A stretch of 9,969 bases of DNA from Thermoplasmatota archaeon (GTDB lineage Archaea; Thermoplasmatota; Thermoplasmata; Thermoplasmatales; Thermoplasmataceae): positions 1 through 9,969 of the forward strand of contig JAMCUD010000045.1 in the NCBI GenBank assembly GCA_023379355.1, in the 5' to 3' direction. The number at the start of each line of letters is the position of its first letter. Position 1 is the stretch's first letter. Under the pieces are notes generated by a model, which saw nothing but the letters and a program-made list of their open reading frames with translations, made no database searches and had not been told where the DNA came from. The position numbers and the translations under genes were made by a program. This document shows positions 1-9,969 of this stretch, piece by piece.

Positions 1-32
1 ATCATTTTTCAGGGGGTAGAGTTTTGAGCCAA

Positions 33-42
33 GTTTTATGGG
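33..42 (+). promoter_or_regulatory. Possible TATA-like element of the GIY-YIG gene
   Basis: A T-rich TTTTAT stretch is centred about 27 bases before the ATG at 64. That is the spacing expected for a leaderless archaeal transcript, and no clear Shine-Dalgarno sequence precedes this ATG. The match is weak and rests on spacing alone. Confidence 0.3.
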
Positions 43-63
43 ATCTTTTGGTTTTATTCTATT

Positions 64-366
64 ATGGCAAGAAATAAGATGATCAGAACTTTGGAGTCCG
101 CCGGACATAATGTAAAAGAGTATGGAACGGGTTGGTCAAAAAGCGAAATTTATGATGTGCCCGACTCCCCAGGTATTTACGCCCTCTATTGGGGAGACAC
201 CCTGCAATACATTGGTATGTCAGAGGGGGCAATCCCAGATCGTGTAAACCAATGGGAACGTCTCGATAGAAATAAGATCGAAAATATACCCTTTGGGAGT
301 TTTGATTGGTTTACTCTTCCTAAGAATCAAGTAAGGGAAGCAGAGGATTACTTGATAAAATACTAA
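64..366 (+). CDS. GIY-YIG nuclease domain protein, truncated by in-frame TAA
   Basis: A 100-residue product with GIY at residues 37-39 and YIG at 49-51. A candidate catalytic Arg is R60, and a Glu in EDYLIK (E94) sits where the metal-binding Glu of GIY-YIG nucleases lies. The family makes single-strand or double-strand DNA cuts in repair, restriction and homing enzymes; the role here is unknown. The frame stops at TAA 364-366. The next codons, in the same frame, read QPPYNIKQRL and then TAA at 397-399. PPYN after a LIKY helix is the usual end of this domain, so the stop looks like a nonsense mutation and not a natural end. The enzyme may be inactive, or may tolerate loss of its last ten residues. 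The start at 64 is the first ATG after an in-frame TGA at 25. Confidence 0.72.
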   Translation: MARNKMIRTLESAGHNVKEYGTGWSKSEIYDVPDSPGIYALYWGDTLQYIGMSEGAIPDRVNQWERLDRNKIENIPFGSFDWFTLPKNQVREAEDYLIKY

Positions 367-472
367 CAACCCCCTTACAACATAAAGCAGAGACTTTAAT
401 AGGAAGTTTTAAAGTTATTCCCACTCCGGTAAGGGTCTTAAAAATTCCATTCCTCATATATAATGTAATTCC

Positions 473-1648
473 TCACTTGCTTGACCCAACCTCAGTCTTC
501 AGAGAAGCTTTCCTTATGACGTCGAACCTTTTCCTGTCCGGGGGAAAGAGTAGAGCATACCATAGAGTAGCGCCCTCATAGATTGCCACCGCATACTGGA
601 GAACAAGAAGGATGGGTGAATATCTCCTCCTTGTTCTAAGTGCACCGTACTGGTAGACCATGAAGTATGAAACGGTATTGAAGAGTGACACTGCGAGAAT
701 CTCCGGAGGAAGTGACAACCCGAAGAATATGGAATAGAGGATGTATGCCAGCCCAAGCATGCCTGTCCATCCCACAATGTACCTGTAGAACAGGAACATC
801 ATGAGTCTCCTGGATACGGACCACAGCTTCTTCCTTGCATAAACAATGGCCATGAGCCATCTCCTTCTCTGCCTGTAGAAATCCTTCATGCTCAATGGCG
901 GCGAAATGAACACATGGAACGGTATCCTGCTGAAACCATATTTCCTGGATACAAGGTTTCCCATCATGACGTCATCAGCGCCATAGGTCGCGAAATCCCA
1001 CCCCATCTCATACTCAACATCAGCCCTGATGGTGAGGCCCTCTCCGTGAACGAACATCGCTCTCCCCTTTGAGTTGAAGTGCCTGCAGTATATGTCGCAG
1101 TCAGAAATCCTTACCATGTCAGCCAGGGTTGACATGAGGTGTGTTCCATAGTCCCTGAGCCTTATCTCTCCCTGGCCTGCGACTGCGTTCATCCCCATGA
1201 TGTAAAGAAGGTAATCCTTCTCCACTATGGAATCATCATCCAGGTGGCATATGTATGTCTCCAAGCCGTATCCCAGTTCATGAAGCACAGAGATGGCATA
1301 GTGAAGTGCCCTTAACTTTGTCAGGCTTCCCTTCGGAGTGCCGTATGATGTGGGTACTGTTATCTCCCTCGCCATGTACCGGTGCGAATCATTCTCCTCC
1401 TTTACCACGAATATGTCCATTTCAATGCCATAGGCCTCGAGAGTCCCTATGATGGAGTCCACGACATCCGGATTCTGGCCGTTGGTTGCAATCTCAACCA
1501 CGAGTCTCCTCCCCTGGACAGGTCTCGGAATGTGAACGGTATCATGGCGGTGTATGAAATTTGAAACAATACCTGCAATCTGGATCACGCCCAGGGGAAA
1601 GTACACTATCACAACGAAGGTGAATAGATACCATGCTATGGGGTACAA
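473..1648 (-). CDS. Membrane GT2-family glycosyltransferase, Egghead-like
   Basis: A 391-residue inverting family-2 glycosyltransferase, expected to use a nucleotide-activated sugar at the membrane. There is one N-terminal hydrophobic segment (residues 3-31) and a cytosolic catalytic domain, followed by roughly three C-terminal membrane segments (about 284-370). The metal-binding DDDS is at 137-140, a candidate catalytic-base motif GADD at 223-226, and QRRRW at 260-264. A VPTSYGTPKG segment followed by KLRALHYA, and HLDDDS, recall the animal beta-1,4-mannosyltransferase Egghead. The donor and acceptor cannot be read from sequence. The start is TTG at 1648, because the codon just before it is the TGA of the upstream RHH gene. 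GAGG six bases before that TTG provides the ribosome site. It therefore looks translationally coupled to the regulator. A role in surface glycan or glycolipid synthesis is plausible. Confidence 0.85.
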   Translation of the reverse strand: MYPIAWYLFTFVVIVYFPLGVIQIAGIVSNFIHRHDTVHIPRPVQGRRLVVEIATNGQNPDVVDSIIGTLEAYGIEMDIFVVKEENDSHRYMAREITVPTSYGTPKGSLTKLRALHYAISVLHELGYGLETYICHLDDDSIVEKDYLLYIMGMNAVAGQGEIRLRDYGTHLMSTLADMVRISDCDIYCRHFNSKGRAMFVHGEGLTIRADVEYEMGWDFATYGADDVMMGNLVSRKYGFSRIPFHVFISPPLSMKDFYRQRRRWLMAIVYARKKLWSVSRRLMMFLFYRYIVGWTGMLGLAYILYSIFFGLSLPPEILAVSLFNTVSYFMVYQYGALRTRRRYSPILLVLQYAVAIYEGATLWYALLFPPDRKRFDVIRKASLKTEVGSSK

Positions 1649-1798
1649 TCAGATCCTCTCCCTCTTCAGGCTGTTCCTCACCGCTTCAAGTATGAATTCC
1701 TGCCTTGATCTGTATCCCCCCTTCCTTATTGCTTCCTCAATTCTTTCTTCTAGATCCTCTGTCATTTTTAGCAGAATCTGTACATTGGTAGTGGTCAT
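1649..1798 (-). CDS. Small ribbon-helix-helix (CopG-type) regulator
   Basis: A 49-residue protein. It has a short strand (TTTNVQILLKM), helix A (EDLEERIEEAIRKGG) and helix B (SRQEFILEAVRNSLKRE), the layout of a dimeric ribbon-helix-helix DNA-binding protein. The strand residues would enter the major groove. The start is ATG at 1798. Its TGA at 1649-1651 directly abuts the TTG of the glycosyltransferase, so the two form an operon. A perfect 20-bp palindrome 11 bases upstream covers the likely TATA box, which suggests autoregulation. The targets are inferred. Confidence 0.8.
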   Translation of the reverse strand: MTTTNVQILLKMTEDLEERIEEAIRKGGYRSRQEFILEAVRNSLKRERI

Positions 1799-1808
1799 TG
1801 TAAATCTG

Positions 1809-1828
1809 TAAATATCTTAAGATATTTA
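1809..1828. promoter_or_regulatory. 20-bp perfect palindrome, probable RHH operator over the TATA box
   Basis: TAAATATCTTAAGATATTTA is a perfect inverted repeat. Read on minus, its TTAAATAT edge lies about 27 bases before the ATG at 1798, where a TATA box would sit for a leaderless transcript. Binding here would block transcription of the RHH-glycosyltransferase operon. Confidence 0.65.
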
Positions 1829-1894
1829 ATTCATGTCTTCAGATATGATAGCTATTCAATGTCATGGCAAGATTAATGCAATATTACGGGTTGA

Positions 1895-1908
1895 GTATCT
1901 GGAGATAT
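1895..1908. promoter_or_regulatory. Second copy of the palindromic operator-like site
   Basis: GTATCTGGAGATAT matches the core of the palindrome at 1812-1825 (ATATCTTAAGATAT) at 11 of 14 positions, and two of the three differences are in the centre. It ends one base before the TTG start of the divergent RHH gene and includes its GGAG ribosome site. A protein bound here could affect transcription of the rightward gene. Confidence 0.5.
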
Positions 1909-1909
1909 C

Positions 1910-2110
1910 TTGGCAAAAAGAACAAGGTTAACGTCAATAGGAACAAAGCAGGTTCTACTGAAGCTTCCTGAAGGGATGTACGGGGAGATAATGCATCTGA
2001 TCGAGGAGAAGAGGATGTGGCAGTCCATACAGGACTTCATCAGGGACGCTATCATGACGGAGTTGAGGAGGCAGGAGGATGAGCATTCGCGGGACAAGGG
2101 GCCCCCATGA
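1910..2110 (+). CDS. Ribbon-helix-helix regulator, 66 aa
   Basis: The protein has a basic N-terminus (AKRTRLT), a strand (KQVLLKLP), helix A (EGMYGEIMHLIEEKR) and helix B (SIQDFIRDAIMTELRRQ). This is a CopG/Arc-like RHH fold with a charged tail. The start is TTG at 1910, because the frame has a TGA at 1892-1894 and no ATG or GTG in between. GGAG at 1901-1904 lies five bases before it. It is transcribed away from the 49-aa RHH gene across a shared regulatory region. The two may regulate each other. What it controls is unknown. Confidence 0.72.
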   Translation: MAKRTRLTSIGTKQVLLKLPEGMYGEIMHLIEEKRMWQSIQDFIRDAIMTELRRQEDEHSRDKGPP

Positions 2111-2128
2111 TCCCAAGGTTCCAGTTAG

Positions 2129-2155
2129 GAGAAAGATTCTCATTTTCTCATTTTT
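2129..2155 (+). terminator. Hairpin plus T-rich tail, probable terminator
   Basis: A 5-bp stem (GAGAA/TTCTC, three-base loop) at 2129-2141 is followed by T-rich ATTTTCTCATTTTT. It lies 19 bases after the stop of the RHH gene. Archaeal termination relies mainly on T tracts, and this region provides one. Confidence 0.45.
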
Positions 2156-2171
2156 CATCGGCACAGAACCC

Positions 2172-2179
2172 CTTAAATT
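2172..2179 (+). promoter_or_regulatory. TATA-like box before the 2189/2204 gene
   Basis: CTTAAATT is centred about 28 bases before the ATG at 2204. That fits a leaderless transcript starting at 2204 better than one starting at the ATG at 2189. Confidence 0.4.
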
Positions 2180-2188
2180 GAGAATTCA

Positions 2189-2398
2189 ATGAACCGACAT
2201 GCAATGAGAGTGAGAAATACGCTGATAGACATTGAGGGGGAAGCCCTCAAACAGATACGTAATGAAGGATACAGGGTGGGATGGAATGACCGGAAGCTCC
2301 ATGACACCGGCCTCATAGAGGAGGCGATAAGGGGATCACGAAGCTTCAAGGAATTTGTGGCCAGCCCCAGGGAGAGAATGGAGATACTGGATCAGTGA
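2189..2398 (+). CDS. Small protein of unknown function
   Basis: A 69-residue soluble, charged protein. If translation begins at the in-frame ATG at 2204, which the TATA spacing favours, it has 64 residues. The body has a strand-like RNTLIDI, then two probable helices (GEALKQIRNEG; TGLIEEAIRG) and a SFKEFVASPRERMEIL tail. It could be a diverged small DNA-binding protein of the RHH type, but the pattern is not convincing. I do not recognise a family. An interrupted small ORF follows four bases after its stop, so the two may once have been an operon. Confidence 0.5.
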   Translation: MNRHAMRVRNTLIDIEGEALKQIRNEGYRVGWNDRKLHDTGLIEEAIRGSRSFKEFVASPRERMEILDQ

Positions 2399-2402
2399 TA
2401 CC

Positions 2403-2606
2403 ATGGCCAGAAGAAATCCGCTTACAAAGGAATACTAACTAGGAAGGAAGGATCAGTATGATCTTGACTATTCCATATTCAGGAAGGCCATAGAGGAAAC
2501 TGAAACCAGGGATGAAATGATAGAGTTTCTGGAGGAAAGATTCGGGTATGTCATATCGAAAATTGAGGATGAGAATGCAAGAGATCTCATGAGGATCTGG
2601 AATTAA
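2403..2606 (+). pseudogene. Small charged ORF interrupted by in-frame TAA
   Basis: From ATG at 2403 the frame encodes MARRNPLTKEY and then TAA at 2436-2438. The same frame continues for 55 codons to TAA at 2604-2606. The downstream part is helix-rich and acidic (RKAIEETETRDEMIEFLEER, then KIEDENARDLMRIW) and reads like real protein. No ATG, GTG or TTG lies between the inner stop and ATG 2517 in this frame. The simplest reading is a 67-codon gene broken by a nonsense change. I do not recognise the family. Its position just after the 2189 gene suggests former co-transcription. Confidence 0.45.
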
Positions 2607-2742
2607 CATGACTTAGATCCTTATCGTGAGACATTTGTTCTGGTGATCTTTTCGTACGCTGACTAAATGTTGACCTTTGAGAGTAACATTTTAATCCTGG
2701 AAAATCATAAACTTCCTACTGTGGAAATGGAATTGCTGGTGG

Positions 2743-2762
2743 GGATCAATTCTCTTTGATCC
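2743..2762. promoter_or_regulatory. 7-bp inverted repeat upstream of vsr
   Basis: GGATCAA and TTGATCC are separated by six bases, ending 20 bases before the vsr ATG at 2783. It could be an operator for the vsr-methyltransferase operon or an RNA hairpin in its leader. No strong ribosome site was seen before ATG 2783, so a structure here could influence translation. Confidence 0.45.
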
Positions 2763-2782
2763 AAAAGAAGTGTGGTTATCAC

Positions 2783-3178
2783 ATGTCGGATAATTTGTCA
2801 AGTGAGAAGAGGAGAAAAGTCATGGCAAGTATCAAGGGAAAGGATACAAGGCCTGAGATGCTGTTATGGGCGCAGCTGGATCATAGGATATTTCATAGAT
2901 ACCCGAGAATCCAAGGAAACCCAGATATTGGGTGCGTATCAAGAAAGATTGCCATTTTCGTGGATGGCTGCTTCTGGCATGGCTGCCCTCTCTGCTATAG
3001 GCCACCTTCAACAAGGCCAGAATACTGGTCTAACAAGCTAAAGAGGAACTTGGAAAATGACGAACGCGTTAACATCATACTGAAAATGTCTGGGTTCAAG
3101 GTTTTGAGGTATTGGGAGCATGAAGTTCTGAGCGATGCGGAAGCATGTGTTCAAAGGGTAAATGAGGTGCTGGATTGA
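2783..3178 (+). CDS. vsr: Very-short-patch repair endonuclease (Vsr)
   Basis: A 131-residue Vsr-family nickase. These enzymes cut 5' of the T in T:G mismatches left by deamination of 5-methylcytosine, starting very-short-patch repair. The family opening (SSEKRRKVMASIKGKDTRPEML) is intact. So are the catalytic Asp in GNPDIG (D48), the core FVDGCFWHGCPLC (59-71), RPEYW and WEHE (111-114). Candidate zinc ligands are C63, C68, C71 and H113. The VDGCFWHGCP...WEHE variant is a known subtype, so Asp in place of the E. coli His there is not a defect. The frame opens upstream to a TTG at 2756, but family alignment puts the start at ATG 2783. The stop overlaps the start of the cytosine methyltransferase, its usual partner. 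Confidence 0.93.
   Translation: MSDNLSSEKRRKVMASIKGKDTRPEMLLWAQLDHRIFHRYPRIQGNPDIGCVSRKIAIFVDGCFWHGCPLCYRPPSTRPEYWSNKLKRNLENDERVNIILKMSGFKVLRYWEHEVLSDAEACVQRVNEVLD
3164..3178 (+). promoter_or_regulatory. Coupled ribosome site GAGGTG-N5-TTGA (vsr/methyltransferase)
   Basis: GAGGTG at 3164-3169 lies inside the last codons of vsr, five bases before the TTG at 3175. TTG overlaps the vsr TGA (TTGA). This site decides the TTG start of the methyltransferase, whose motif I begins only eight residues in. It implies translational coupling. Confidence 0.75.
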
Positions 3179-4365
3179 GGGAGCCCCTTACATTCATCGA
3201 TCTCTTTGCTGGGGCCGGAGGTTTCTCCTTGGGACTCAATCAAGCTGGCCTGAAAGGGATGTTCGCGATAGAAAGGGATGGTATGGCTTTTTCCACATTG
3301 GAGCATAACTTGATCCGGAAGGCGAAGGCGTTTGAGTGGCCAGAATGGCTACCGGTGGCCGCCGCAGATATCAGGTCGGTCTTGAGCGAGCATAAAGACC
3401 AACTAGTGAGACTCAAGGGTTCTGTTGACATAGTCGTCGGTGGCCCACCTTGCCAGGGATTCTCCGTGGCCGGGAGACGGCTTGAGCATGATGAACGTAA
3501 CCAGCTTTTCAAAGAATATGTGAAGTTTGTAGACTTAGTGAGGCCAAGATTACTTATGTTCGAGAATGTTCCAGGTTTTTCATATTCATTCAGAGAGCTG
3601 GGGAAACCGCAGATTCCGTATTCATCTTTGCTCGCTCAACAATTGCAAGATATAGGTTATGAAGAACCAGCCCAGCATATTTTTGATTTCTCTGAATTTG
3701 GTGTTCCTCAGCGAAGGAAAAGGCTCATTGTGTGCTCTGTAGAACGGGGAGGAGATCCCACAAAGATCATTGAATTGTTGGACAGCAATAAACTATCGCG
3801 AAAAGTTGGTGTTCGGAAGGCAATTTCTGACTTGTTAAGGGATTATGGTGAAATTCCGAGCCCTGATTCTAATGGTTTCATGGCAGGTCTATATGGTACA
3901 GTGAACTCAAAATTCCAGAAGAGAATGAGGAGCGGGGTTATTGGCAATGCTCCTGACAGCCATCGCTTCGCGAGGCATTCCACTCTAGTGAAAGAAAGAT
4001 TTTCCGAAATCATAAAGTCAACAGCTTCTTCAACGGAATGGACGAGGGAGTATATACGATCGCTCGGACTGAAGAAACGCGATCTTACTGCTCTTGATCC
4101 ATCTGCTCCCGCCCCAACTCTGACCACACTTCCTGATGATTATGTCCACTACGAGGAACCAAGGATATTGACCGTCAGGGAGTACGCTAGGATCCAGTCT
4201 TTCCCTGACTGGTTTGAATTCAAGGGAAAATACACTACAGGGGGGAAATTGCGTGCCTCTGAAGCTCCAAGGTACACTCAGGTAGCAAACGCTGTACCTC
4301 CAAAATTTTCAGAAATTGGCGGTGAAGCTTTAAGACAATATAGGGATAAGGTGGGACTCTACTAG
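3175..4365 (+). CDS. dcm: DNA (cytosine-5)-methyltransferase
   Basis: A 396-residue C5-cytosine methyltransferase that moves a methyl group from S-adenosylmethionine to cytosine in a specific DNA site. Motifs in order: I (DLFAGAGGFSLG, 9-20), IV (GGPPCQGFS, 89-97, catalytic C93), VI (FENV, 129-132), VIII (QRRKR, 179-183), IX (PAPTLTT and LTVREYARIQSFP, 312-344) and X (QVANAVPP, 369-376). The stretch at about 205-310, between VIII and IX, is the target-recognition region, and the recognised sequence cannot be inferred. All catalytic motifs are present and the length is normal. TTG start, coupled to vsr. No restriction endonuclease is adjacent. It ends 13 bases from the end of the convergent receiver-HEPN gene. 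The symbol is given by family, not by demonstrated specificity. Confidence 0.93.
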   Translation: MREPLTFIDLFAGAGGFSLGLNQAGLKGMFAIERDGMAFSTLEHNLIRKAKAFEWPEWLPVAAADIRSVLSEHKDQLVRLKGSVDIVVGGPPCQGFSVAGRRLEHDERNQLFKEYVKFVDLVRPRLLMFENVPGFSYSFRELGKPQIPYSSLLAQQLQDIGYEEPAQHIFDFSEFGVPQRRKRLIVCSVERGGDPTKIIELLDSNKLSRKVGVRKAISDLLRDYGEIPSPDSNGFMAGLYGTVNSKFQKRMRSGVIGNAPDSHRFARHSTLVKERFSEIIKSTASSTEWTREYIRSLGLKKRDLTALDPSAPAPTLTTLPDDYVHYEEPRILTVREYARIQSFPDWFEFKGKYTTGGKLRASEAPRYTQVANAVPPKFSEIGGEALRQYRDKVGLY

Positions 4366-4378
4366 GCTTATATATACG

Positions 4379-5350
4379 TCATTGAGAGGTAGCTCCATTT
4401 CCAAGTCTCACTATGTCCTCTTGCAATTTCTGAAGTTCCTTGTCGGTTTTATAACATAGATGTAGGTGGTCTTTGATTTTGTTTCTGGGCAAGCAGTCAG
4501 GGAAATAGGAGGGGCTGTTCTGTTGTTTACCTTTCTTTTGGTTTTCGGGAGTCAATCGATTTCTAATTTGCAAACCTCCTTTCCCATCGGATATGGCTAT
4601 TCCATGGGCGACTAAGTTTCTGGTTCTAAAAATTTCCTTTATGTGGCCTTCTACTTGTTTTGGAACGACATGTATTGATTTGTATTCATCCTCCGGCAAT
4701 CTATTTAAGTAGGTAGCCACAGTGTGAAATTTTGAGCCCGGGCCATAGTTTTCGCTCCTTAGAAGTGCCCATTTGAAAAAATCCTTGAGTTTATCGTCAA
4801 TCCTGAAAAGACTTCCGACGCAATCATCTATCAACACTTCTGTATCGGTGGCCCTAGAAAGGACTAAACCCCTCAAGTACTCTGGGTCAGATAATTTAGT
4901 GGTTGCTCTCCAGACCATTTTGTCAATAGTTCCCTCTATCTCGTCCCTATTCGCAGTCCAGACGTTTCCATAACGATTCCACAAGAGTTCATTATCAATG
5001 TTTATAGTTCCCGCCTGTGTATATAGAAGGATATCAGTGGGGTATCTTCTGCTGGAAATTGTATTGGCAACTTCTAGTCCAGCGTTTTTTTCTCTTAAAT
5101 TAAAATCACAAAAAATCCAATCTGGAACTTTGACATCACCCTCCAATACCTTTAAAACATCTGCCTTTGTCTTCATTAACTGAATCTGCTGCAACGATAA
5201 TTTAACCCCGTTTCGTATAGGTATGCTCGCAAGACTCCCTTCTAGAAATCCTTTCATCCTTTCCGCTTCAGTATCATTATCCTCAAGGACCACTACGTTG
5301 ACCTCAATAGCCTCAGAGTCTTTTTTTCTGGTGGGTGTCGCAGTAGTCAA
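4379..5350 (-). CDS. Receiver-domain protein with C-terminal HEPN-like RNase motif
   Basis: A 323-residue cytosolic protein. Residues about 16-145 look like a response-regulator receiver: an acidic pair in LEDN (E23, D24), a phospho-acceptor Asp in IFCDFN (D82) and the switch Thr in LYTQAG (T111). The conserved Lys expected near residues 131-135 (NVWTA) is absent, so the switch may be atypical. The all-helical second half (about 155-320) carries RNLVAHG at 244-250. This is the Rx4H signature of HEPN RNases, with the usual Asn after the Arg. HEPN domains cut RNA in many toxin and abortive-infection systems. No DNA-binding output domain is seen. TTG start, overlapping the kinase stop. The natural partner is the upstream kinase. 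The receiver is well supported; the HEPN call rests on one motif plus helical context. Confidence 0.72.
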   Translation of the reverse strand: MTTATPTRKKDSEAIEVNVVVLEDNDTEAERMKGFLEGSLASIPIRNGVKLSLQQIQLMKTKADVLKVLEGDVKVPDWIFCDFNLREKNAGLEVANTISSRRYPTDILLYTQAGTINIDNELLWNRYGNVWTANRDEIEGTIDKMVWRATTKLSDPEYLRGLVLSRATDTEVLIDDCVGSLFRIDDKLKDFFKWALLRSENYGPGSKFHTVATYLNRLPEDEYKSIHVVPKQVEGHIKEIFRTRNLVAHGIAISDGKGGLQIRNRLTPENQKKGKQQNSPSYFPDCLPRNKIKDHLHLCYKTDKELQKLQEDIVRLGNGATSQ

Positions 5351-5361
5351 AGGTCCACCTC
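5347..5361 (-). promoter_or_regulatory. Coupled ribosome site GAGGTG-N5-TTGA (kinase/receiver-HEPN)
   Basis: On minus, GAGGTG lies within the final codons of the kinase gene, five bases before a TTG that overlaps the kinase TGA. The layout is the same as at the vsr/methyltransferase junction. It fixes the TTG start of the receiver-HEPN gene and links production of the two proteins. Confidence 0.75.
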
Positions 5362-7650
5362 AAAACATGCACCTCTTAGCATCCCAGTCTTCCCATTTCC
5401 CATAAAACCTATATCTCCACCCAATCCTCTTGCTATTTTCTTCATAGTATACAAACCAAGCCCTTGACCCCCTCGTGTGGAAATCCCAGGAGAGAAGAGA
5501 GCATCAGAAACGTTTTCATTAACCCCGTCACCATCATCAGAAAAATAAAGTTTCAGGGAAGCCCCCGTAGCCTCAAACTTCAAGAGGATATTCTTGCAAT
5601 GGGCTTTCAGGGAATTGCTAACTAGGTTATCCAAAATAATAGATATTTCTAGATATCTTAGCTCCTTGGTTACTTTCACTTCATCTCCGATGAAACTGAC
5701 TTGAACACCATTGGACGCAAGGTTATCTTTCTTGGTTTTACTTAGATATTGTGTTATGAAGGAGATAATGTTGCCTTCTATTATATCTGAGCTTAAGTCA
5801 AACTTAGCACTAAGGGAAAGCTCGGCGACTTTCACCATCTTCTGTACCGAAATCCTTGCAGACTGGAGGGATTCGACAAAATCTTTCATGCCCTCGATCT
5901 TAGAAAGTCCATTAATCACTCTTTCAAGGGACGGTAAAACATCGTCCCCAGCAATTACAAGCTCGTGGTCAAGTAGATCAGATATCGGACCCCTAATATT
6001 CGGTGATTTTTCAAGGAAGAGTACCTCCTTTTCCCGTTGCCTAAGGTTCCTATTTAATTCCCTAATTCCTGTCTTGATCCCCTTTATTTGGGCTTCAACA
6101 AACTCCTTTGAACTTGAATCAGGTGCGACGCTAGCAAGTGCTTCAAGGCTGTTCACTAGTTCTGGCACTTTCTGTATCTCTTTTTCCTTGACAATCTCAA
6201 GAAGATTCTTTCCAACTCCAATTGAGATGAAATCCTTCGGATCACCGGCAATATAATCTACCAGCTTTAGGCTTTCAATCTTCCTTTCTTCTTCTGTGAC
6301 AGGTTTTGTTTCGGAGTCCCAATTTATCGCTTCAACAACATATCTCTGGAGCCGTTTGATCACATAGCTATTCATGAGTTCCTTGAGTTCCTCAAGAGGC
6401 TGGCCCTGATAGAAACCTTCACGATTAGATACCTCCTTGAAGGTGTTCGTTTTGTCTGTTATGGAAACCATCCCGAGAATGTCTCTGGTTGCAAGTCTAC
6501 GACCCCATCCTTGTCCTTTTTGCCTATCAAGGCCTAGCCAATCGTCACCTTCTTCACCGTATGGAAAAACACGGAAGGTATTCCTGTAAACGTGGATAGA
6601 GCCAAAGTTGACAGGTCTAATGCCCATGATCCTTGTGAAGATATTTTTTGAATTCTTGTTAAGGTAGAAGACTTCTGTATCTACTTTTTCTGCACGTTCC
6701 TGAGACCCGACAGTCTCGAACGGAGATCTCTCAAGAGTATCTATCAGCAGTTCCCCTTTCTCAAATAGCTTGATTCTAATTCTCCCATTCTCTATGTTAC
6801 CAGTTATCCATGTAGACCACTTCCTAAGGTCATCAATAACAACGTTAGAGATATCTCCGTTTACTGGGCCTTTGGGCTCCCATCTCTCCACTCGATCATC
6901 ATCCTCAGCTTCATTGGCGTCAGCATAATGTTTCTCGTTGAGTTTTATCTGTCTTGAATCCTCCTTATCGTAAAGAGATGAGCCAAGATAGAGCTTGAAA
7001 TCAGATGGCGGGTTGAAGGGATTAATCATCCTTTGGAGATACTTTCTAAGTCTGAACAAGTCTTCATAAGGCCACTTATCTCTGAGATTTTCAATTACTA
7101 AGATTGTGCCTTGACTTGGTTTCACAGTGTGGTATTGTTGAACTATGCGAGGGTAATCTTCAATTGTTATGTCCACAGGTATCTTGTTAAACTCTTCCTT
7201 CTGATTCTTTTCAAAATCAAGCCAATTAACATGCAGGTGAACCCATTCGTTCTCGCCTATTGTCTTGGAATATAGGTCCAATTTCTTGCCCAACCTGTCG
7301 CATGAAAATCTCCCAATTCCTTTCATCCCAGACTGTAATCTTGGCAGTTCTTTGCTAGCTTCTTCTTTCTTGTCAGAAAATCCCACAAATAACCATTTAT
7401 TTCTTATGTCTGCCTCGTTCATTCCAGTTCCATCATCTATTATGAAGAGCTTATCCGCGGTACCATCTTTTGGATCTGGATCGTTGTGTTTGAAAATTAT
7501 TCTCGTGTTCGTAGCTCCCGCGTCATAGGCATTTTTTACTAGTTCGAGCACGGCGATATACTTGTTGGACACTAGCTCTTGTCCCACTAGGTCTTTCAAG
7601 GCTGTACTAATCTGAAAATAACCTTCATTTCTTTTTTTTGGACTTATCAT
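5347..7650 (-). CDS. Soluble histidine kinase with an extra N-terminal MORC/Hsp90-like ATPase
   Basis: A 767-residue protein with two GHKL ATP-binding modules and no membrane segment. The first has an N box (ELVKNAYDAG, 36-45), DDGTGM (72-77) and GMKGIGR (108-114). A region to about 440, with SNREGF at 408-413, resembles the middle of MutL/Hsp90/MORC-type ATPases found in restriction islands. A charged, probably coiled-coil linker (about 515-550) follows. Residues about 555-610 look like a dimerisation/phosphotransfer helix pair, with H562 in LLDHEL as the candidate phospho-His. The C-terminal module has N box NLVSNSLKAH (675-684), DDGDGV (705-710), an F-box-like LFSPGIST and GGQGLGL (727-733). 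The start is ATG 7650, with GGTGGTG four bases upstream and TAA as the preceding codon. It probably senses a cytosolic nucleic-acid or stress cue and phosphorylates the next gene's receiver; the cue is unknown. Confidence 0.85.
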   Translation of the reverse strand: MISPKKRNEGYFQISTALKDLVGQELVSNKYIAVLELVKNAYDAGATNTRIIFKHNDPDPKDGTADKLFIIDDGTGMNEADIRNKWLFVGFSDKKEEASKELPRLQSGMKGIGRFSCDRLGKKLDLYSKTIGENEWVHLHVNWLDFEKNQKEEFNKIPVDITIEDYPRIVQQYHTVKPSQGTILVIENLRDKWPYEDLFRLRKYLQRMINPFNPPSDFKLYLGSSLYDKEDSRQIKLNEKHYADANEAEDDDRVERWEPKGPVNGDISNVVIDDLRKWSTWITGNIENGRIRIKLFEKGELLIDTLERSPFETVGSQERAEKVDTEVFYLNKNSKNIFTRIMGIRPVNFGSIHVYRNTFRVFPYGEEGDDWLGLDRQKGQGWGRRLATRDILGMVSITDKTNTFKEVSNREGFYQGQPLEELKELMNSYVIKRLQRYVVEAINWDSETKPVTEEERKIESLKLVDYIAGDPKDFISIGVGKNLLEIVKEKEIQKVPELVNSLEALASVAPDSSSKEFVEAQIKGIKTGIRELNRNLRQREKEVLFLEKSPNIRGPISDLLDHELVIAGDDVLPSLERVINGLSKIEGMKDFVESLQSARISVQKMVKVAELSLSAKFDLSSDIIEGNIISFITQYLSKTKKDNLASNGVQVSFIGDEVKVTKELRYLEISIILDNLVSNSLKAHCKNILLKFEATGASLKLYFSDDGDGVNENVSDALFSPGISTRGGQGLGLYTMKKIARGLGGDIGFMGNGKTGMLRGACFEVDL

Positions 7651-7679
7651 TTAGCACCACCGAGAGTTTTTTCAAACAT
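7647..7679 (-). other. Possible 10-codon leader ORF overlapping the kinase start
   Basis: ATG at 7679 opens MFEKTLGGAK, whose TGA overlaps the kinase ATG in an ATGA arrangement. A TAG directly precedes the ATG. The kinase ribosome site lies inside it. It could be a coupling leader peptide or chance; there is no independent support. Confidence 0.2.
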
Positions 7680-7795
7680 CTATTTCAATGACCTCAACTC
7701 GGCTAACATGCTATTTTTGCGCTTCAGACTCAAAAGTAGATTTCTGAACCTCAAGCATGATTGAAATTGCTTCTTTTGCCACCAGAAATTACTGT

Positions 7796-8377
7796 TCATT
7801 TCAATTCATCACCTTCATTTATCTTCCCTTCCTTGATATATTCCTCAATCAATGACCTCATGTGCGGAAGAGACCAAGCAAAGTCCACATGCTTGCATTC
7901 CTTGCTCTCATCCTTCTCGCACCATAATTCAAAGTGACTGTTAATCCTCTTAACGTAAACCATGATGACGCTTGTTGTCTTCCCGGATTGATCTATCTCC
8001 TGTATTGCAACATGATCATCTAGGACATTGAGATGGGTCATCGCTGACAGCCCCTTGAACCTGTCTCTCCAGTCCGGGGGCATTTTGAATTGCGCTCCTT
8101 CTTCAGTAATCTCACCTTTGGCGATTTCCTCTGCCTTTCTTAATTGCTCAGCGACCTGACGGCCTTTGGGAGTAAGAGATATTTCCTGTATGTTCTTTCC
8201 AAACGCCTTCTGATCTATTTTAATCAAGCCATCATTGCTTAACTGTGCCAGCAACTTGTCCAGTGAATAGAGATTCTTGACTATGTCCTGCAAAGCCGTC
8301 TTGAGGCAGCTTCTCCCAAGCAACCTAATCAGAACCGACTTGGAAAAACGCAGATCGAGTGAGCTTGAATTCACCAA
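7796..8377 (-). CDS. Winged-helix DNA-binding protein with Cys/His cluster
   Basis: A 193-residue protein. Residues about 10-85 look like a winged helix-turn-helix. Helices (SVLIRLLG; ALQDIVKNLYSLDKLLAQLSNDGLI) are followed by a wing-like IQEISLTPKGRQVAEQL, as in archaeal MarR/PadR-like regulators. The C-terminal half carries C153, C161, H163 and H172 in LWCEKDESKECKHVDFAWSLPH, a possible zinc site, then a final helix. The frame has a TTG at 8377 and a GTG at 8374. A TATA-like box centred near 8402 suits a leaderless start at GTG 8374 slightly better. It reads toward the kinase operon, 145 bases upstream. It may regulate that operon or be a resident regulator; no target is shown. Confidence 0.68.
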   Translation of the reverse strand: MVNSSSLDLRFSKSVLIRLLGRSCLKTALQDIVKNLYSLDKLLAQLSNDGLIKIDQKAFGKNIQEISLTPKGRQVAEQLRKAEEIAKGEITEEGAQFKMPPDWRDRFKGLSAMTHLNVLDDHVAIQEIDQSGKTTSVIMVYVKRINSHFELWCEKDESKECKHVDFAWSLPHMRSLIEEYIKEGKINEGDELK

Positions 8378-8396
8378 TTAACATGTCGCAGATGTA

Positions 8397-8406
8397 TCTT
8401 ATATCT
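8397..8406 (-). promoter_or_regulatory. TATA box of the winged-helix gene
   Basis: On minus this reads AGATATAAGA, centred 25-28 bases before the TTG 8377/GTG 8374 starts. This suits a leaderless archaeal promoter. Confidence 0.5.
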
Positions 8407-8415
8407 ACGCAACGT

Positions 8416-8423
8416 GATATATA
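8416..8423 (+). promoter_or_regulatory. TATA box of the RHH gene at 8448
   Basis: GATATATA is centred about 28 bases before the ATG at 8448. No ribosome site precedes the ATG, so a leaderless transcript is likely. It is divergent from the winged-helix promoter, and the two boxes are about 18 bases apart. Confidence 0.55.
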
Positions 8424-8437
8424 CACATTATACGTTA

Positions 8438-8450
8438 CATATTGTATATG
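8438..8450. promoter_or_regulatory. Small inverted repeat over the RHH start codon
   Basis: CATAT-TGT-ATATG overlaps the ATG at 8448 and the likely transcription start. It is a candidate autoregulatory site for the RHH protein, but 5-bp arms in AT-rich DNA can arise by chance. Confidence 0.3.
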
Positions 8451-8594
8451 TCAGATAGAATATCAATCGCTGTATCGAAAGAAAAGTTGAATGAGCTGTA
8501 TTCAGTGAAGTTTGATTTCAGGGTCAATACAATCGAAGAGGCCATAAAGGAATTGCTTAACAAATATCACCAGAAACAGGATATCCCCACTTAA
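8448..8594 (+). CDS. Small ribbon-helix-helix protein, 48 aa
   Basis: The strand RISIAVS is followed by helix A (KEKLNELYSVKFD), a turn (FRVN) and helix B (TIEEAIKELLNKYHQK). This is a clear RHH pattern of the kind seen in archaeal plasmid, virus and toxin-antitoxin regulators. The start is ATG 8448, backed by a TATA box at leaderless distance. It faces away from the winged-helix gene. Its stop lies 10 bases from the stop of a convergent RHH remnant with similar helix B (SLGEVIDRLIEEYNRK), so the two could be diverged copies. The partner or target is unknown. Confidence 0.72.
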   Translation: MSDRISIAVSKEKLNELYSVKFDFRVNTIEEAIKELLNKYHQKQDIPT

Positions 8595-8604
8595 TCTCCC
8601 CTGG

Positions 8605-8775
8605 TCAGGGCTGTTTTTCGTGGCTTTCCGTGCCATGTTTCCTGTTATACTCCTCGATTAGACGATCTATCACTTCCCCGAGCGAATCAACCTTCAGTTC
8701 ATATTTGAGTTCCCTCAATTCATCGCACAATTCATGGGACCTTGAGAAGGACAGCGGCAGCGGGACTGAAGAATC
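8605..8775 (-). pseudogene. RHH-type gene lacking a start codon
   Basis: The minus frame ending at TGA 8605-8607 encodes SVPLPLSFSRSHELCDEL, then a helix with KYELKVD and SLGEVIDRLIEEYNRK, and a polar tail ending EKQP. That is the strand-helix-helix order of an RHH protein. The frame is open back to 8805 but holds no ATG, GTG or TTG before TTG 8730, which would remove the DNA-binding strand. An ATG at 8787 exists in another frame. Upstream of about 8770 the DNA instead encodes an HsdR remnant on the opposite strand. The gene has therefore probably lost its head in a rearrangement; a frameshift is the alternative. Confidence 0.5.
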
Positions 8776-8777
8776 CT

Positions 8778-9335
8778 GACATATCCATACTGTCAGATTA
8801 ATTCCTCACCGAAGTCAGGGATATGTCACAGAAGAACCTTGCCTTTGAGATGTTAAGGAAACTGCTGAAAGATCAGATTGGAATAAGGAAGAGAAAGAAC
8901 CTCATACAGCAGAGATCATTTCTGGAACTTCTTGAAAAGTCAATCAAACAGTACACCAACAGGTCCATTGAAACAGCAGAGGTGATACAGGAACTTATCG
9001 ATCTTGCAAAGAAGATCAGAGAAGAACAGAACCGCAGAAAGGGCATGGGCCTTACCGATTATGAGGTTGTCTTCTATGATGCACTTGCGGACAACGAAAG
9101 CGCAAGGGAAGTTTTAAGTGACCAGAATCTGCGTATTATTGCAAAGGAACTTGTTGAGACTGTGAGGAAGAATGTCACAATCGACTGGATCATTGGAGAA
9201 AACCTACTGGGTAAACTTCGACTGATGGTGAAAAAGATATTAAGAAAGTGATGGTATCCTCCTGATAAGCAGGAGAAGGCAACCCAGACGGCGCTGGAAC
9301 AGGCAAAGCTGCATTGGTATGGGTGGGTAAATTAG
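8778..9335 (+). pseudogene. hsdR: C-terminal remnant of type I restriction enzyme R subunit (HsdR)
   Basis: This matches the C-terminal helical region (DUF3387-type) of HsdR, the ATP-driven translocase and nuclease subunit of type I restriction enzymes. From ATG 8823 it is open for 142 residues to TGA 9249-9251, with family-typical NLAFEMLRKLL, NRSIETAEVIQELIDLAKK, FYDALADNESA and KELVETVRKNVTIDW. The similarity runs past both ends. Before the ATG the same frame reads DISILSD, TAA (8799-8801), FLTEVRD. After the TGA it reads WYPPDKQEKATQTALEQAK to TAG 9333-9335. The nuclease and helicase domains, and HsdM and HsdS, are absent. It is a dead fragment, or at most a short expressed relic. Confidence 0.85.
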
Positions 9336-9392
9336 AAAGGTCGTGATAAGTAATCCTATTATACTGGACAGAGAATATCATATTTGAGGAAT

Positions 9393-9509
9393 ATGTCATC
9401 AAAAGGTAAAGGGAAAAGCGCACCACCCAATCCTCCCTCGAACCCAAATTACCCAAGTACAACTGGGCAGCCATCTGGAAAGGGGAGAGGGAACAGTCCT
9501 AAGAAATGA
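9393..9509 (+). CDS. 38-aa basic, disordered small protein
   Basis: From ATG 9393 to TGA 9507-9509 the product is made almost wholly of Ser, Gly, Lys, Pro and Asn. It begins SSKGKGKSAPPNPPSNP and ends GKGRGNSPKK. It has no hydrophobic core and a strong positive charge, as in nucleic-acid-binding tails or small chromatin- or RNA-associated peptides. GAGG at 9386-9389 precedes the ATG, and an ATTATA box lies about 32 bases upstream. The composition is too ordered to look random, but no family is recognised with certainty. It follows the HsdR remnant and may be the first intact gene to its right. Confidence 0.5.
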   Translation: MSSKGKGKSAPPNPPSNPNYPSTTGQPSGKGRGNSPKK

Positions 9510-9510
9510 A

Positions 9511-9570
9511 AAACCTTGAGAAATAGGGTTGTTATATCTCTTATTGTAATTATTTTTTCATTCCCTTTTT
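9511..9570 (+). terminator. Weak hairpin and T tract after the 38-aa gene
   Basis: AACC and GGTT can pair around an 11-base loop just after the TGA. Further on come ATTTTTTC and CCCTTTTTCC. T tracts of this kind end many archaeal transcripts. Confidence 0.3.
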
Positions 9571-9725
9571 CCATAATAACATGTTTTTGCATAAGTTTCC
9601 GACTTTAACAAACTTAGTATCTGGCTATGCTGTCTTGGGTCTAAAGCTTCAAGTATATCTTCACTGGAGACAACCAGCCTATGGTCCCCGGAAAGCTTAT
9701 CAGATTCCTATTGGTGTAATAGGCA
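9571..9725. other. No supported gene
   Basis: This stretch lies between the 38-aa gene and the edge gene. On minus, about 49 codons after a TAG are open from roughly 9707 to a TGA near 9561, in the same frame as the edge gene but after its stop, and no start codon serves them. The plus frame at 9581-9766 has no recognisable protein character. I assign no function. Confidence 0.4.
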
Positions 9726-9969
9726 TTATTCCAGTTTCGATATCTTCATGCCCTTGTCATCCGTGAATTTAAGGATGTCTCCGTCTTCCAACCCAGCCTC
9801 CTTGATATCTTCCTTTGTATTGTTATCCTTTACGACGTTCCTCTTGCAGATACGTGAGTTACGTGGATTAACCTTTTTGCCATTTCCCGTAATAGTATAA
9901 AATTTGAAAAACATTTTTCTTTCCTGTATGTTATTTACTGCGTTTATTGCATTCTCATCCTCAATTTTC
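9726..9969 (-). CDS. Unknown protein, 5' end outside the window
   Basis: The minus frame ends at TAA 9726-9728 and is open to the right edge, giving at least 80 residues. An ATG at 9914 would give 62 residues, but 18 open codons before it (including KIEDENAINAVNNIQERK) read naturally, so the true start may lie beyond the edge. The visible part is basic and polar (TITGNGKKVNPRNSRICKR), then KEDIKEAGLEDGDILKFTDDKG. The AGLEDGDILKF element recalls the 'lead-in to a swapped-hairpin strand' of AbrB-like folds, but the rest does not confirm it. It could equally be the tail of a larger protein. Confidence 0.45.
   Translation of the reverse strand, partial: KIEDENAINAVNNIQERKMFFKFYTITGNGKKVNPRNSRICKRNVVKDNNTKEDIKEAGLEDGDILKFTDDKGMKISKLE

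Follow-up and report, generated by a model that had tools for sequence, protein, structure and literature searches.

A MORC-type ATPase joined to a histidine kinase core, its predicted receiver–HEPN partner and a linked C5-cytosine methyltransferase in a Thermoplasmatota archaeon

The stretch of DNA analysed here, which we call the window, comprises positions 1 to 9,969 (9,969 nucleotides) of contig JAMCUD010000045.1 from a Thermoplasmatota archaeon (assembly GCA_023379355.1). Two overlapping genes on its minus strand are the subject of this report. The first (5347..7650) encodes a 767-residue protein that we term MORC-HK; the second (4379..5350) begins at a TTG codon overlapping the kinase stop, shares 4 bp (TTGA) with the kinase gene, and encodes a 323-residue protein that we term REC-HEPN. 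Convergent to this pair, on the plus strand, lie the genes for a Vsr mismatch endonuclease (2756..3178; TIGR00632, E 5.6e-31) and a C5-cytosine DNA methyltransferase, Dcm (3175..4365; DNA_methylase, E 1.5e-49), the latter 13 bases from the REC-HEPN stop. An earlier, sequence-only reading had described the pair as a kinase with two GHKL modules relaying phosphate to a receiver–HEPN RNase. Both open reading frames (ORFs) and their overlap are real, and the reading appears right in outline, with function reached by inference.

The assignment of MORC-HK draws on its ORF, Pfam matches, fold matches and an AlphaFold model with a mean predicted local distance difference test score (pLDDT) of 74. Residues 22-442 (6325..7587, minus strand) make up a GHKL and S5 ATPase module of MORC type bearing E36, N40, D72, G74, G76, G108 and G113, while a histidine kinase core, with its DHp hairpin and CA domain, occupies residues 549-767 (5350..6006, minus strand). 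Pfam recognises HATPase_c_3 at residues 32-158 (E 2e-23) and HATPase_c at residues 669-765 (E 3e-17). The two GHKL modules that had been claimed are therefore both present, but they are not of one kind: the first carries an ATPase-type glutamate (E36), the second a kinase-type asparagine (N675). E36/N40, N675/N679 and H562 were all read back from the DNA.

Conservation was assessed over 81 kinase rows, namely the window and the best 80 of 561 confirmed loci from a kinase-profile scan, and, apart from the viral contigs, all counts out of 80 given below refer to these loci. E36 of the MORC module is kept in all 81 rows. The candidate phosphorylated histidine of the earlier proposal, H562 (5965..5967, minus strand), is histidine in 80, the sole exception being the truncated kinase of locus L079, and in our alignment its column matches the histidine of HELRT in 5uht/2c2a and that of HEIRN in ZraS, which we take to be the phosphorylated sites of those proteins. 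Sequence and predicted fold give the arrangement of a histidine kinase: this H-box histidine sits in a DHp helix, and the CA domain after it has N, G1 and G2 boxes. In the first GHKL module, a catalytic glutamate with an S5 domain behind it is the arrangement of a MORC or paraMORC ATPase. Judged by sequence and model together, the 767-residue protein is a MORC-type GHKL/S5 ATPase fused to a histidine kinase core. Its highest 19-residue Kyte-Doolittle mean is 0.89, which agrees with the soluble protein that had been predicted. On a FastTree phylogeny of 79 kinases the window protein falls among archaeal and candidate-phylum rows, beside a long-branched Thermoplasmatales kinase (L024), a placement that the long branches make unsure.

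REC-HEPN (AlphaFold mean pLDDT 89.8) opens with a receiver domain, residues 14-153 (4892..5311, minus strand), in which E23, D24, D82 and T111 are found. We compared it with other partners in an alignment, A3, of 75 proteins: 65 from the 80 loci, the window's own and nine from databases. This alignment omits nine loci with short receivers and two with a receiver only; L012, with its shortened frame; the divergent L075; L067 and L079, where no partner is in reach; and the database fragments P0004 and P0008. An acid pair (E/D23 and D/N24), D82 and S/T111 are kept in all 75, on a CheY fold, and D82, R244 and H249 are invariant at a mean column identity of 19%. The receiver residues D24, D82 and T111 named in the sequence-only reading were read back from the DNA. 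Among 40 further database proteins D82 is present in 39, with one gap.

Two observations weigh against a conventional phosphorelay. In seven of the 81 kinase rows N675 is replaced by D, S or T, and the canonical lysine after strand 5 of the receiver was not found: the window has A133/N134 there, followed by a position (R135) that is arginine in 54 of the 75 partners and lysine in five. The receiver would therefore be an atypical switch. One might suppose that it is instead a phosphate-independent adaptor, with MORC-HK needing no more than binding and closure of its clamp to activate REC-HEPN, and the kinase core serving as a dimer platform. The missing lysine and the slight variation of the CA-box residues (N675 in 72 of 81 rows, D705 in 76) speak for this, but H562 is kept in 80 of 81 kinases, and D82, the acid pair and S/T111 in 75 of 75 partners; we consider it unlikely.

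The remainder of REC-HEPN, residues 156-322 (4385..4885, minus strand), is a helical domain that we predict to be a HEPN RNase. At the end of a helix spanning residues 230-249 lies the Rx4H motif RNLVAH (R244-H249; 4604..4621, minus strand), read from the DNA as had been reported. The Rx4-6H motif of the HEPN superfamily is present in 75 of 75 aligned partners, and R244 and H249 are both kept in 40 of 40 further database proteins, or 39 of 39 distinct ones given that one duplicates a member of A3, although these proteins were fetched with a profile that itself holds the motif. None of these homologues has lost it, and on this invariance we reject a chance occurrence of Rx4H.

Conservation of a short motif is not our only ground for the prediction. 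When the C-terminal domains of 66 relatives were cut out and searched against Pfam at E ≤ 1, RiboL-PSP matched 12, Swt1 five, MAE_28990 four and Abi_2 three, and all four of these families, the only ones with at least three matches, are HEPN types (we count Abi_2 as such following passages of PMC3710099). Compared with a profile of 17 HEPN_RiboL-PSP proteins, the window's clade scored 34.5 and a wide set 29.4, in register at the Rx4H motif. The controls were lower: 30 shuffles of each reached no more than 19.2 and 10.8, the reversed profiles scored 13.2 and 10.7, and other domains did not exceed 16.7. A stand-alone 206-residue protein matches the HEPN half of the REC-HEPN profile (E 5e-7) and also PF18735, at an E of 4.5e-4 that lies below the curated cut-off.

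Several results count against the assignment. The hhalign probabilities against HEPN_RiboL-PSP are modest, at 63% with the window's clade and 37% with the wide set. No Pfam model matched the C-terminal stretch of the window's protein at E ≤ 1, and no PADLOC model matched REC-HEPN at E ≤ 0.01. A profile search of the PDB with the domain returned 14 weak matches to E 10, none named HEPN. Among the matches listed by structure searches with the whole protein, almost all were receivers, which filled the list, and none was HEPN. The predicted structure is a receiver plus an all-helical domain; a confident fold other than HEPN, which would have refuted the earlier reading, was not seen in it. Family profile searches point to HEPN, with modest scores; the window's domain matches no HEPN model by itself. 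On the Pfam HEPN matches in relatives and a profile comparison that exceeds its controls, and not on a direct fold match, we predict a HEPN RNase, less firmly than we assign the other domains.

Homologous pairs recur widely, which the earlier reading had left to be surveyed. The kinase has at least 1911 relatives at E ≤ 0.001 (7993 scored candidates), and the 80 loci come from Bacteroidota, Pseudomonadota, Planctomycetota, Bacillota, Spirochaetota, several archaeal groups and others. By script, a partner ORF of at least 120 amino acids lies downstream of the kinase in 77 of the 80. In 76 it is no more than 41 bases away, and in 49 the two frames overlap by 4 bases; the partner of L024 was outside the script's finds and was added by hand. 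Drawing from the partner side, in genomes of two phyla with about seven candidates at most scored per genome, we found full-length matches (E under 1e-50) in at least 5 of 296 and at least 2 of 299 genomes, counts that are lower bounds. The partners at these seven loci are at most 61% identical to those in A3. All seven have a Dcm gene abutting, and the kinase is visible in six, the contig of the seventh ending at that point.

All 80 of the 80 kinase loci have a homologue of the window's Dcm, some copies being cut by contig ends, and in 77 it lies within 250 bases. In 62 (61 counted by script, plus L010) its gene points the same way and is no more than 250 bases upstream, and in 15 it is convergent directly after the partner, as in the window; an HpaII-type endonuclease gene intervenes in L058 and L071, and in L021 Dcm is 2.9 kb away. 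Vsr occurs in 23 of the 80. Over 64 loci, distances among kinases correlate with those among partners (r 0.75) and among Dcm proteins (r 0.42), with none of 999 permutations as high, shared ancestry being uncorrected in these values. Dcm, kinase and receiver-effector are found together in many bacteria and archaea, and the C5-methyltransferase, overlooked by the sequence-only reading, is likely a third part of a unit larger than the pair.

On predicted viral contigs, 10 of 80 loci kept from 93 kinase relatives hold both kinase and REC-HEPN, nine of these 10 with Dcm abutting. A separate scan of viral contigs with patterns made for REC-HEPN turned up 10 matching stretches, none of them a relative. 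Those patterns were too narrow, since the kinase scan of the same collection held 10 copies of REC-HEPN. Among plasmids, tblastn at E 1e-5 found no relative of the window's REC-HEPN. Carriage on viral contigs is one point in favour of a different account, in which the unit is an addiction module: the kinase would keep REC-HEPN off, or phosphorylated and inert, for as long as Dcm methylation lasts, and loss of the cassette or of Dcm activity would free the RNase, its role being the upkeep of a selfish methylase cassette and not immunity. The gene set and linkage fit this equally well, and such behaviour is known for type II restriction-modification modules (passages of PMC8011034). However, a fused receiver-effector with a conserved phosphorylation site suits regulated firing as well as restraint, and where an HpaII-type endonuclease lies inside the unit, as in L058 and L071, no extra toxin would be needed. 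We judge the addiction account improbable, if still the strongest of the rivals considered here.

An Rx4H partner is present in 67 of the 80 loci, that is the 65 in A3 together with L075 and with L012, where the receiver part of the frame is shortened. (In L012 a second ORF, at 15225-16142 on the plus strand, gives a weak match to the REC-HEPN profile, 27.9 bits, and is perhaps a second copy beside the shortened first.) Nine loci encode a receiver of 225-241 amino acids without Rx4H, two a bare receiver of 124-127 amino acids, and two have no partner in reach. The 11 loci whose receiver lacks HEPN carry another candidate effector instead: tentatively a CHAT/caspase-like gene in nine, and an HpaII-type endonuclease in two. 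The endonuclease lies between Dcm and kinase (L058:8916-9995 and L071:8916-9995), and the partner there is the bare receiver. When output labels are placed on the 79-kinase tree, the fewest changes that explain them number five.

In each of the nine short-receiver loci a further gene abuts, complete in eight and cut by the contig end in L077. The complete copies encode 210-251 amino acids (L008:13037-13792, L044:13266-13913, L047:13013-13756, L048:13174-13920, L054:13191-13937, L059:11172-11804, L062:13194-13943 and L073:13097-13744), and all eight show GHG and LxC[NH]S patterns. A profile comparison behind the caspase/CHAT reading scored 21.9, against at most 18.3 for 30 shuffles, 14.5 for the reversed profile and 16.5 for other domains, with an hhalign probability of 2%. 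Searching the family against Pfam gave seven weak families, CHAT not being one of them, and a profile search of the PDB gave no match. On the patterns seen by eye and the weak profile result, the third gene is possibly a CHAT/caspase-like protease effector. On a Stenotrophomonas rhizophila plasmid, Dcm, kinase and a 212-residue receiver are found with an ORF whose HG and SC pattern resembles that of the third gene. At about 22-27% identity, more distant kinases accompany receivers without a recognisable HEPN domain, for instance in Campylobacter armoricus, with Dcm, and in Hymenobacter, with an N6-methylase; given the latter, the wider kinase family may not be tied to C5-methylases. In that Hymenobacter plasmid (L224:4590-11173) the distant kinase and a receiver-like gene stand beside the N6-methylase and near a Piwi-domain gene.

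We reject an ordinary transcriptional two-component system, as no DNA-binding output was recognised and HEPN or replacement effectors take its place. Another regulatory role would be that of a soluble two-component system tuning expression of Dcm or of neighbouring genes in a restriction-modification island, with a C-terminal output that binds or processes RNA; passages of Bellieny-Rabelo et al. (2021, PMC8011034) speculate on control of restriction-modification for a sister pair. Two findings speak against regulation: 75 of 75 partners and 39 of 39 further proteins keep the arginine and histidine of an RNase motif, and 11 of 80 loci have protease-like or endonuclease genes in place of this output. 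We think little of its chances.

We favour a restriction-modification-like defence system in which the attack is carried by a two-component relay that acts through exchangeable effectors. This builds on the domain make-up (less firm for HEPN than for the rest), conserved catalytic residues, constant gene linkage and output exchange seen above in sequences and models. The unit would consist of Dcm, MORC-HK and REC-HEPN, with Vsr as an accessory. Dcm would methylate cytosine at a set site in the host's own DNA, providing a mark of self. The MORC module would bind ATP and, as a dimer, clamp DNA whose state gives the alarm, most likely because it is foreign and lacks the Dcm mark, or because Dcm has been lost. 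Clamp closure may then release the kinase core, allowing autophosphorylation at H562 and transfer of the phosphate to D82 of the receiver. Phosphorylated receivers would pair, bringing two HEPN domains together as a composite active site, and the dimer would cut cellular or viral RNA, such that the cell stalls or dies before the invader spreads. For this full chain, from DNA sensing and methylation gating through phosphotransfer and dimer activation to RNA cleavage and an anti-phage role, we put the chances at about even.

In such a system, we infer, the relay stands in for the restriction enzyme. That a whole class of restriction-modification systems works in this way, a MORC clamp sensing methylation and His-Asp phosphotransfer firing interchangeable suicide effectors, so that restriction proceeds by signalling and not by direct cutting of DNA, is a more tentative proposal, to which we would give slightly less than even odds. 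Its effectors might be a HEPN RNase, a CHAT/caspase-like protease or, where the receiver is bare, an HpaII endonuclease, and we hold this list with the same reserve, a little short of an even bet. The proposal suggests an output, and with it a role, for soluble two-component pairs linked to restriction-modification, and it brings together work in three fields, on MORC ATPases, on His-Asp signalling and on HEPN-mediated abortive infection. It would also allow one to ask directly what a prokaryotic MORC module senses, because the state of the clamp, on DNA with or without methylation, could be read simply from autophosphorylation, and the swapping of the RNase for protease-like or endonuclease partners is a natural test of effector modularity.

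The genes around the unit were also surveyed. No type II endonuclease was recognised in the window among eight (Pfam), seven (NCBIfam) and six (PADLOC) proteins, an unlinked or unrecognised enzyme being possible; PADLOC REase_II gave partial matches to the GHKL part of the kinase. Across the loci, 130 of 139 nearest flanking genes, from at most 75 of the 80 and including the two bare receivers and most of the third genes, were scanned, and among the families listed (25 of 116 for Pfam, 25 of 272 for PADLOC) there were three HpaII endonucleases, two HNH and four of the HhH-GPD or nicking type. An endonuclease family matching a single neighbour could lie outside this listing, and the rarity of endonucleases near the unit is therefore not established. 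A gene of about 145 amino acids abuts REC-HEPN in three loci (L053:13206-13646, L060:7272-7712 and L070:13302-13733). By eye, the L053 copy resembles a HAD phosphatase; the HAD_PNKP model matched four of the 130 neighbours, which ones not being named, and the gene might encode an RNA-end or receiver phosphatase. Elsewhere in the window, a 100-residue ORF at 64-366 (plus strand) shows a GIY...YIG-like pattern by eye without a convincing family match, and is possibly a small nuclease. At 8823-9251 (plus strand) a 142-residue ORF matches a family of type I restriction subunits (T1RH-like_C, E 4e-52) over their C-terminal part only, and may be left over from another defence system. About 0.9 kb, at roughly 1811-2755, holds no ORF of 80 or more amino acids and no Rfam match at gathering score.

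Is the system already known? The sequence-only reading knew of no characterised system with this exact pair, and we likewise found no receiver–HEPN protein paired with a MORC kinase in the titles and abstract openings of the top-ranked matches in open-licence literature, figures and supplements lying outside that search. However, a sister pair had been published in 2021: the two-component-like HEF_HK (PF19191) and Response_reg_2 (PF19192) proteins of Bellieny-Rabelo et al. (PMC8011034), described in passages of that paper as a soluble kinase, made of HATPase_c_3, DHp and HATPase_c parts, whose gene adjoins a receiver-like one and has C5-methylase and Vsr genes nearby. We reject membership in that family on the absence of PF19191 from the window kinase and of PF19192 from its receiver, both at E ≤ 0.1; PF19192 matches five of 75 receivers weakly (best E 0.0017). 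PF19191 was found in none of 30 genomes holding our kinase loci, which shows little, as control genomes likewise gave no match. The response-regulator-like ORFs linked to HEF_HK in eight sampled loci are also far longer than REC-HEPN (567-721 amino acids), two of the eight having an RN-type Rx4-6H pattern, and the word HEPN is absent from the main text of PMC8011034.

A second relevant system is Detocs, whose name did not appear among the families listed for NCBIfam (25 of 34 for the kinase) or PADLOC, the Detocs content of these libraries being unchecked. We take its gene set to be DtcA, DtcB and DtcC, with a PNP-type effector. In the passages of PMC11249213 that describe it, Detocs is a defensive three-gene two-component family with an ATP-cleaving PNP effector; its two-component phosphosignalling ends in a toxic effector, as that of our unit would, whereas the window has a MORC sensor, a C5-methylase and a HEPN-like effector in place of PNP. 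Parts of two further papers touch on the domains involved: HATPase and REC are among the abbreviations DefensePredictor (2026, PMC13092281) uses for predicted systems with unvalidated domains, and VcSduA (PMC12137116) shows that anti-phage activity is possible for a GHKL module joined to a nuclease. The BbrUII/HgiDII restriction enzymes (NF050001) share an N-terminal GHKL part with kinase residues 18-225 (E 7.8e-21), but the score of 74 is far from the cut-off of 550 and the match ends at profile position 201 of 659.

The MORC and paraMORC ATPase genes of restriction-modification islands, in the sections of Iyer et al. (2008, PMC2292703) concerned, accompany C5-methylase and Vsr genes, MORC proper bearing a GhXhhpXXRhl motif in its S5 domain. 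The window's GHKL and S5 module is likewise next to such genes; the modules described there act with helicases and nucleases, whereas this one is fused to a kinase core. The paraMORC-HEPN (Ymh) fusions in restriction-modification loci of Anantharaman et al. (2013, PMC3710099) join ATPase and HEPN directly, with no kinase core or receiver mentioned in the relevant passages, but they share with the unit described here the coupling of a MORC-like ATPase to HEPN in a restriction-modification neighbourhood.

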